From the NCBI GenBank assembly GCA_021324155.1, contig JAJPJQ010000051.1, forward strand, positions 62,001 through 126,000: 64,000 bases of DNA, given 5' to 3'. The number at the start of each line of letters is the position of its first letter. Position 1 is the first letter of the stretch. Positions 41,061-46,697 of this stretch are shown here, one piece after another. The DNA comes from Pseudomonadota bacterium. Lineage in GTDB: Bacteria; Desulfobacterota; Binatia; UBA9968. Below the pieces are notes generated by a model. That model worked only from the letters and a program-made list of their open reading frames with translations, did not search any database and was not told the DNA's origin. The position numbers and the translations under genes are program-made.

Positions 41061-41276
41061 CTAGAGGATGAACGGGCGGGAGTTTGCCGCGCGGTAGCCG
41101 ATGATCTGGTGGCGGCGCTCGCCGTGCATCGCCCCCGCCCCGGTATCCGGAGCGGCGCCGCACTTCGGGCAGCGCTTTTCTCGCGCCGCGGCGCCGGCGC
41201 GCTCGCGTTCGGTCAAAAGTAATTCGAAAGCGCTCTCACACTTGCGGCATCTGAACGTCCACGTCCCCGTGTCCAT
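41061..41276 (-). CDS. zinc-ribbon protein (paralog of 46318-46536)
   Basis: 'TWTFRCRKCESAFELLLTERERAGAAAREKRCPKCGAAPD...GERRHQIIGYR'. Confidence 0.65.
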   Translation of the reverse strand: MDTGTWTFRCRKCESAFELLLTERERAGAAAREKRCPKCGAAPDTGAGAMHGERRHQIIGYRAANSRPFIL

Positions 41277-41371
41277 GGCCCAGTATGGGCTCTCGACGAT
41301 CGATAAACAATACTTTGTCGGTAATATAATTAATGGCTCATGATATCGACGGTTTGGCGGCGCAGCGCGGC

Positions 41372-41406
41372 AAAAAAAGGGGGGCAAACCGACGGTTGCC
41401 CCCCTT
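41372..41406 (-). terminator. intrinsic terminator downstream of RRM gene
   Basis: AAGGGGGGCAA(A)CC-GAC-GGTTGCCCCCCTT stem flanked by a poly-A run on + (U-run on minus transcript). Confidence 0.75.
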
Positions 41407-41427
41407 CTGACTTTTAGCGCTGAGACT

Positions 41428-41745
41428 TTACCAGCGCTGGCCGCCGTTGCGGCTTCCGCCCTTGCCGTTGCGGCTGCCGCCGCCGTTGTCGCGGCGCTCC
41501 ATCGGCTTGGCCTCGTTGACAACGAGCGTGCGGCCGTCGAGCTGCGTGCCGTTCAAAGCATCGATCGCGCTCTGCGCCTCCTGGCTCGTGGCCATTTCGA
41601 CGAAGCCGAAGCCGCGCGATTGGCCGGTGAATTTATCGGCGATCAGGCGCGCGGACGCGACCGTGCCGTGCGGCGCGAAGACTTCCTCGAGCTTTCCTTC
41701 GGTCACCGAATAAGGCAGCCCGCCTACGTATAGTTTATTACCCAT
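41428..41745 (-). CDS. RRM-domain RNA-binding protein with Gly/Arg/Asn-rich tail
   Basis: 'KLYVGGLPYSVTEGKLEEVFAPHG', 'SRGFGFVEMATSQEAQSAI'. Confidence 0.95.
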   Translation of the reverse strand: MGNKLYVGGLPYSVTEGKLEEVFAPHGTVASARLIADKFTGQSRGFGFVEMATSQEAQSAIDALNGTQLDGRTLVVNEAKPMERRDNGGGSRNGKGGSRNGGQRW

Positions 41746-43316: not shown

Positions 43317-43796
43317 TTAGTACGGCGACCCGTCCTTGTGTACGAAGTTCCACTTGCCGTCGACCATCAGCGCCTTGACGTCGTCGTCCGGATAGCTGCC
43401 TTCGTCGCCCGGAGTCCGGTCGCCGATCTCGAGGTAGACGACATCCTCGTCGGTCTCGTTGATAAGGCAGTGTCCGTTCCCGGTGCCCGCTTGGAACCCG
43501 GCTCACATTCCGGGCGCCAGGACCGTGCGCCCTTCGTCGGTATGGAGCGTCGGCCGCCCCTCGACAACGTAGATGAACTCGTCCTGCCGTGTATGCGCGT
43601 GGCGCAATGCCGAAGCCGCCTTGGGCGCGAGGCGAGTGAGATTGACGCCGAAATTGCTGAGGCCGAACAGGTCGCCGAGCGGGCGCTTCTCTCTTCCGGC
43701 CATGCGCGCGGCGAACGGCTCGGGATACGCCGAGGGCTTCGCGCGCGCCGGCGCGTCGGCCGCACGGATGGCGACGGGTCTTTTTTTCGCGGACAT
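43317..43796 (-). CDS. cupin-domain protein interrupted by one in-frame TGA at 43503-43505
   Basis: N part ends '...LHTDEGRTVLAPGM*', and the same frame continues for 61 codons as 'AGFQAGTGNGHCLINETDEDVVYLEIGDRTPGDEGSYPDDDVKALMVDGKWNFVHKDGSPY*'. Confidence 0.8.
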
Positions 43797-44507: not shown

Positions 44508-45778
<1,271 letters not shown>

Positions 45779-46317: not shown

Positions 46318-46536
46318 TCAGACGAGATACGGGTGGGCGTTTTTCTCCATGCGGTAGCCGATGATTTTGTGCCAGCGTTCGCCGGGAGGCGATCCTCTCC
46401 CGGCGTCGGGCGCGTGGTCGCACTTGGGGCAGCGCTTCAGCTTGGCCGCGGCTGCGGCGCTTTCACGCTCGTACAATGCTAATTCGAAAACGCTCCCGCA
46501 GCTCCGGCATCGGAAGGTCCAAATTTCTGTGTTCAT
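46318..46536 (-). CDS. zinc-ribbon protein
   Basis: 'IWTFRCRSCGSVFELALYERESAAAAAKLKRCPKCDHAPD...GERWHKIIGYR'. Confidence 0.65.
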   Translation of the reverse strand: MNTEIWTFRCRSCGSVFELALYERESAAAAAKLKRCPKCDHAPDAGRGSPPGERWHKIIGYRMEKNAHPYLV

Positions 46537-46697
46537 GCTCTCGAATATGCTCCGCGCCGCGGAATACACAAGGTTTTTTGCCGAATCGTAACAAACAGTT
46601 CACGGGAACGACACGTTCGAGGCGCGCAGAGCGCTCGGCGTTCCTTTTTTGTCGGAATGTTAGGGTGCGTGATCGGAAATCGCGGAGAAGATGTCGG

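Follow-up and report, generated by a model that had tools for sequence, protein, structure and literature searches.

The interrupted cupin frame

The window analysed here, a stretch of 64,000 nucleotides, is part of contig C32; the draft assembly comprises 53 contigs and 4.8 Mb. On its minus strand, direct reading gave a cupin frame of 159 codons that runs from an ATG at 43796, with GGAGG just 5ʹ of it, to a TAA at 43317, and that holds one internal stop, a TGA at 43503–43505 (codon 98). The gene read through this TGA (43317–43796, minus strand) matched the Pfam profile Cupin_2 (PF07883) at 56.9 bits (E=1.7e-15; cut-off, 27.2 bits) in a stretch that spans the stop, residues 53–124, and aligned over its full length with relatives of up to about 80% identity. 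These results bear out the first-pass annotation, which had described a minus-strand cupin frame that stays open past the TGA to the TAA and had taken the downstream part for the rest of the cupin fold. The motif PGMCAGF.AGTGNGH, given there for related cupins, is also what the relatives read.

The profile match and the conserved metal-ligand pattern, HxH...E and H...N, place the protein among the Cupin_2 domain proteins. It matches the single-domain members of that family (PF07883) over its full length and shares their ligand pattern, and it differs in being interrupted by one TGA, which no relative examined has at that position; the gene was full-length ancestrally and is intact apart from this one premature stop. 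The nearest solved structure was 3i7d, a ‘sugar phosphate isomerase’ (E=3.3e-33), with a Cys at the position equivalent to the UGA. No family for the protein was found in NCBIfam, and at E <= 1e-8 only one other similar gene was found in the genome, 28% identical to the cupin.

If the TGA terminates translation, the product is a protein of 97 codons (43503–43796, minus strand; from the ORF listing and column conservation), which retains the first cupin motif and lacks the second (His109 and Asn113), as the TGA precedes it. It is highly improbable that this 97-residue fragment works as a short protein, or that the downstream part is reinitiated to give a split cupin. The coding constraint kept in both halves of the gene would suit such a product. 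However, the stop parts two cupin motifs of one barrel, and no relative is split here by a stop, all of them being single full-length frames except for a few frameshifted ones. Moreover, no in-frame start codon follows closely after the TGA, and the next in-frame ATG lies deep in the last third of the frame.

Adjoining the cupin is a 352-codon open frame (44508–45566, plus strand) that, judged from the ORF list only, consists mostly of collagen-like Gly-X-Y repeats. Two similar small zinc-ribbon-like frames, about 5 kb apart, lie at 41061–41522 (minus strand) and 46318–46569 (minus strand); they contain 'TWTFRCRKCESAFELLLTERERAGAAAREKRCPKCG' and 'IWTFRCRSCGSVFELALYERESAAAAAKLKRCPKCD', respectively, and are apparently duplicates of each other.

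Selenocysteine decoding in the genome and SECIS tests

The genome is fully selenocysteine-competent. It encodes tRNA-Sec (74.8 bits; anticodon tca by ARAGORN), SelA, SelB, and SelD, all outside the window, and three bona fide UGA-containing genes, namely two formate dehydrogenase (FDH) alpha genes with one TGA each, also outside the window, and selD itself (L102; G000 C16:68287-69216, minus strand), which carries one TGA. The first-pass annotation had proposed a search for selA, selB, selC, and selD and had named a lack of sel machinery among the findings that would speak against a selenoprotein. Since the complete machinery is present elsewhere in the genome, this objection does not apply. 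That UGA98 of the cupin is read as selenocysteine by the SelB and tRNA-Sec of this genome, via a non-canonical SECIS, is nevertheless very unlikely in our judgement, for reasons that begin with the RNA downstream of the UGA.

The model of bacterial SECIS elements that we used has an apical loop of 3–9 nt, an upper stem of 4–16 bp, a G in the first two loop positions, a UGA-to-loop distance of 16–37 nt, and an MFE <= -7.5 kcal/mol (PMC13188914); the same review cautions that some bacterial elements fall outside it (PMC13188914). No hairpin after the cupin UGA fitted this model, even when the energy limit was eased to -5, and GU was absent from the allowed loop zone. The family yielded 11 FDH elements, and every one of them has a GU loop and a stem of 5 bp or more. 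The FDH genes of this genome served as controls and both passed the model, one with a GUU loop on an 8-bp stem and the other with GGUCU on 6 bp.

The hairpin GUUCC-N12-GGAAC (43476–43497, minus strand), put forward in the first-pass annotation as compatible with a SECIS, does exist in the sequence but failed the model on distance, loop size, loop G, and energy: the loop, 12 nt long and beginning with AA, is reached 10 nt past the UGA, and the helix by itself gives -3.5 kcal/mol. The best SECIS-like alternative, a hairpin at 43467–43490 (minus strand), has a GGAA loop 22 nt after the UGA and combines a 3-bp upper stem, an internal loop, and a 4-bp lower stem at -9.5 kcal/mol. It falls just short of the model, which is a point in favour of selenocysteine, and fails on the length of the upper stem. 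Against it, this near miss was equalled by 40% of synonymous recodings and was mid-ranked among relatives without UGA. The same recoding test gave 54% for the FDH gene L095 and 60% for selD; as it does not distinguish these known genes, the test has little power.

The SECIS-like hairpin of selD in this genome is weak and unmatched in Rfam, and it shows that a genuine element can lie at the margin of the model. The hairpin has a GUA loop on 4 bp, 33 nt after the UGA, and -5.9 kcal/mol in the trimmed calculation, and it passes only with the relaxed limit. In addition, 39 of 126 relatives without UGA passed the model by chance. Given these two results, the SECIS test is moderate and not decisive. 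When the 40–63 nt after the cupin UGA were folded and compared with shuffles, no excess structure was found (z about +0.6 to +0.8). Rfam gave no SECIS match for the cupin, and both FDH genes matched SECIS_3 below the gathering score; as Rfam finds no SECIS for SelD either, the missing match of the cupin is weak evidence.

Column 98 in the relatives

Relatives were drawn from several sources: 67 loci came from GTDB genomes, and others from plasmids, from genomes of the family and order to which the window's genome belongs, and from two class-wide samples taken around carriers of relatives. The six peptide patterns used for the GTDB genomes, one of which contains the Cys, and both class-wide samples give a sampling of the relatives and not an exhaustive collection. 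Among 123 distinct readable relatives, column 98 held Cys in 96, Met in 8, Val in 7, Phe in 6, Ala in 3, Ile in 2, and Arg in 1, and it ranked 54th of 110 columns in conservation. By comparison, H66, H68, E73, and N113 were invariant, and H109 was kept in 93%. Among relatives at least 70% identical to the window cupin, 16 of 17 had Cys. The nearest relative within the family (G012, 76%) has TGC at this column, though its genome has selA. The UGA thus aligns with Cys homologues, and the first-pass annotation was right on the Cys/UGA column; the column is often not Cys, with another residue in 27 of the 123 relatives (22%).

This tolerance extends to genomes that carry selA. Of the nine carriers with selA above the cut-off, five have Cys at column 98 and two have Val, and Phe and Arg occur once each. 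With 22% of the relatives carrying Val, Met, Phe, Ala, Ile, or Arg here, four from genomes with selA among them, the column does not look like the site of a redox-active Cys, and neither redox-type nor functional conservation of a Cys/Sec position was found. No TGA occurred at column 98 in any of about 170 relatives examined; matches in one of the two class-wide samples included one TAA and no TGA. The recurrence of UGA in relatives, by which the first-pass annotation had proposed to check its candidate, was therefore not observed. Viral contigs yielded no cupin relatives.

Compared with the established selenoproteins FdhA and SelD of this genome, the cupin shares a UGA at a mostly-Cys column, a Sec-competent genome, and constraint on the downstream frame, but it has no model SECIS, no relatives with UGA, and a column in which a thiol is not conserved. 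It also resembles the singletons of a selenoprotein survey, in which new candidate families had to have at least two Sec sequences per cluster (PMC2398784). Lone TGA sequences were left undecided by the authors of that survey because sequencing error was possible (PMC2398784). The cupin is likewise one TGA sequence without TGA relatives, and it differs from those singletons (PMC2398784) in that its genome is shown here to be Sec-competent. No Sec-containing cupin was found or named among selenoproteins in the open-access literature searched. If the cupin were a selenoprotein, a fold without a Sec member in that literature would gain one, with Sec near a metal site and outside the thioredoxin-like folds.

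Age and origin of the stop

The first-pass annotation had suggested comparing selection before and after the UGA, and this comparison showed no relaxation downstream. The pN/pS values before and after the UGA were 0.18 and 0.18 against G012. Against the five close relatives other than G012 in this comparison, the value was lower after the UGA, for example 0.21 before and 0.11 after it against Methylovulum. Constraint on the frame is as strong past the UGA as before it, which supports readthrough as selenocysteine, with the limit that pN/pS equal or lower past the stop would also be seen after a very recent change, which would leave no trace. In the gene tree, the terminal branch of the window cupin is short (0.16; median 0.4) and lies inside a group whose members all have Cys; the ancestry of the gene is of the Cys type. 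The short branch and the intact constraint are compatible with selenocysteine, with a base-call error, or with a very recent mutation.

The position of the stop is the one real surprise for an ordinary stop. Of the 42 single-base changes that would create a stop within the gene, 1 hits codon 98 (about 2%), and a random nonsense change would give TGA at any of its Cys codons in 4–5%. That the TGA falls exactly on the mostly-Cys column is accordingly a point for selenocysteine. On that reading, the gene would be a selenocysteine cupin in which the Cys that shortly precedes the second metal-binding motif was converted to Sec in this lineage, and its UGA would be decoded through an atypical SECIS whose GGAA loop tops an upper stem of 3 bp, a history to which we give very little credence. 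Other points against an ordinary stop are that the genome decodes UGA as Sec elsewhere, that there is no sign of decay after the stop, and that such lesions are uncommon in this genome. The last point comes from a sample of about 464 kb of the genome, with hits judged by eye, in which no other mid-gene stop was found and the remaining hits looked like a gene end followed by a same-frame neighbour.

Nevertheless, we regard UGA98 as very probably an ordinary stop, whether it arose very recently by nonsense mutation or reflects an error of base calling or assembly; this estimate covers both origins together. This reading best fits the absence of a model SECIS where both FDH genes pass, the lack of any TGA relative, the tolerant column, and the short terminal branch. 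Of the two explanations offered by the first-pass annotation, it was thus the nonsense mutation or error, given there as the alternative, that fitted best, whereas the selenoprotein fared poorly on the SECIS, the recurrence of UGA, and the Cys column. Our confidence in an ordinary stop and our low estimate for selenocysteine are judgements and not computed values. The case is also a warning that, even where a genome is Sec-competent, a UGA aligned with a Cys column may be no more than an ordinary stop; deciding such cases needs SECIS geometry, recurrence, and the tolerance of the column.

For the ordinary stop, we propose the following course of events. The gene encodes a small single-domain cupin with its start, ribosome-binding site, and reading frame intact, and one base would have changed codon 98, ancestrally Cys, to a UGA that is presumably read as a stop. 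If the stop is real, translation would halt after 97 residues and the second metal-binding cupin motif would remain unmade, while the remainder of the frame would not yet have had time to decay. The truncated cupin would then probably be non-functional, since a 97-residue product without His109 and Asn113 is likely to have lost its function.

Within the ordinary stop, a base-call or assembly error, with Cys as the true codon and the gene intact, is a possible origin, though less likely than not; it is a branch of that reading and not an additional one. The draft state of the assembly in 53 contigs, the short terminal branch with no other sign of decay, and the isolated frameshifts in draft assemblies of relatives all point this way. 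Against it, the lack of any other mid-gene stop in about 464 kb indicates that the error rate is not high; by the same result, lesions of this kind are not common in the genome. Three relatives are frameshifted (L072, L087, and L093) and one has a TAA, indicating that isolated disruptions occur in the cupin family.

The distribution of the gene is patchy. At E <= 1e-20, the cupin was absent from all but three of 35 genomes of the order, and at E <= 1e-30 it was absent from 394 of 395 sampled genomes of the phylum, while copies in Pseudomonadota and Cyanobacteriota are 67–81% identical to the window cupin. The cupin therefore looks horizontally mobile. In one genome of the same order (G033), the frameshift of L093 (1501–1886) falls right after PGMCTGFPA, near the site of the UGA in the window.
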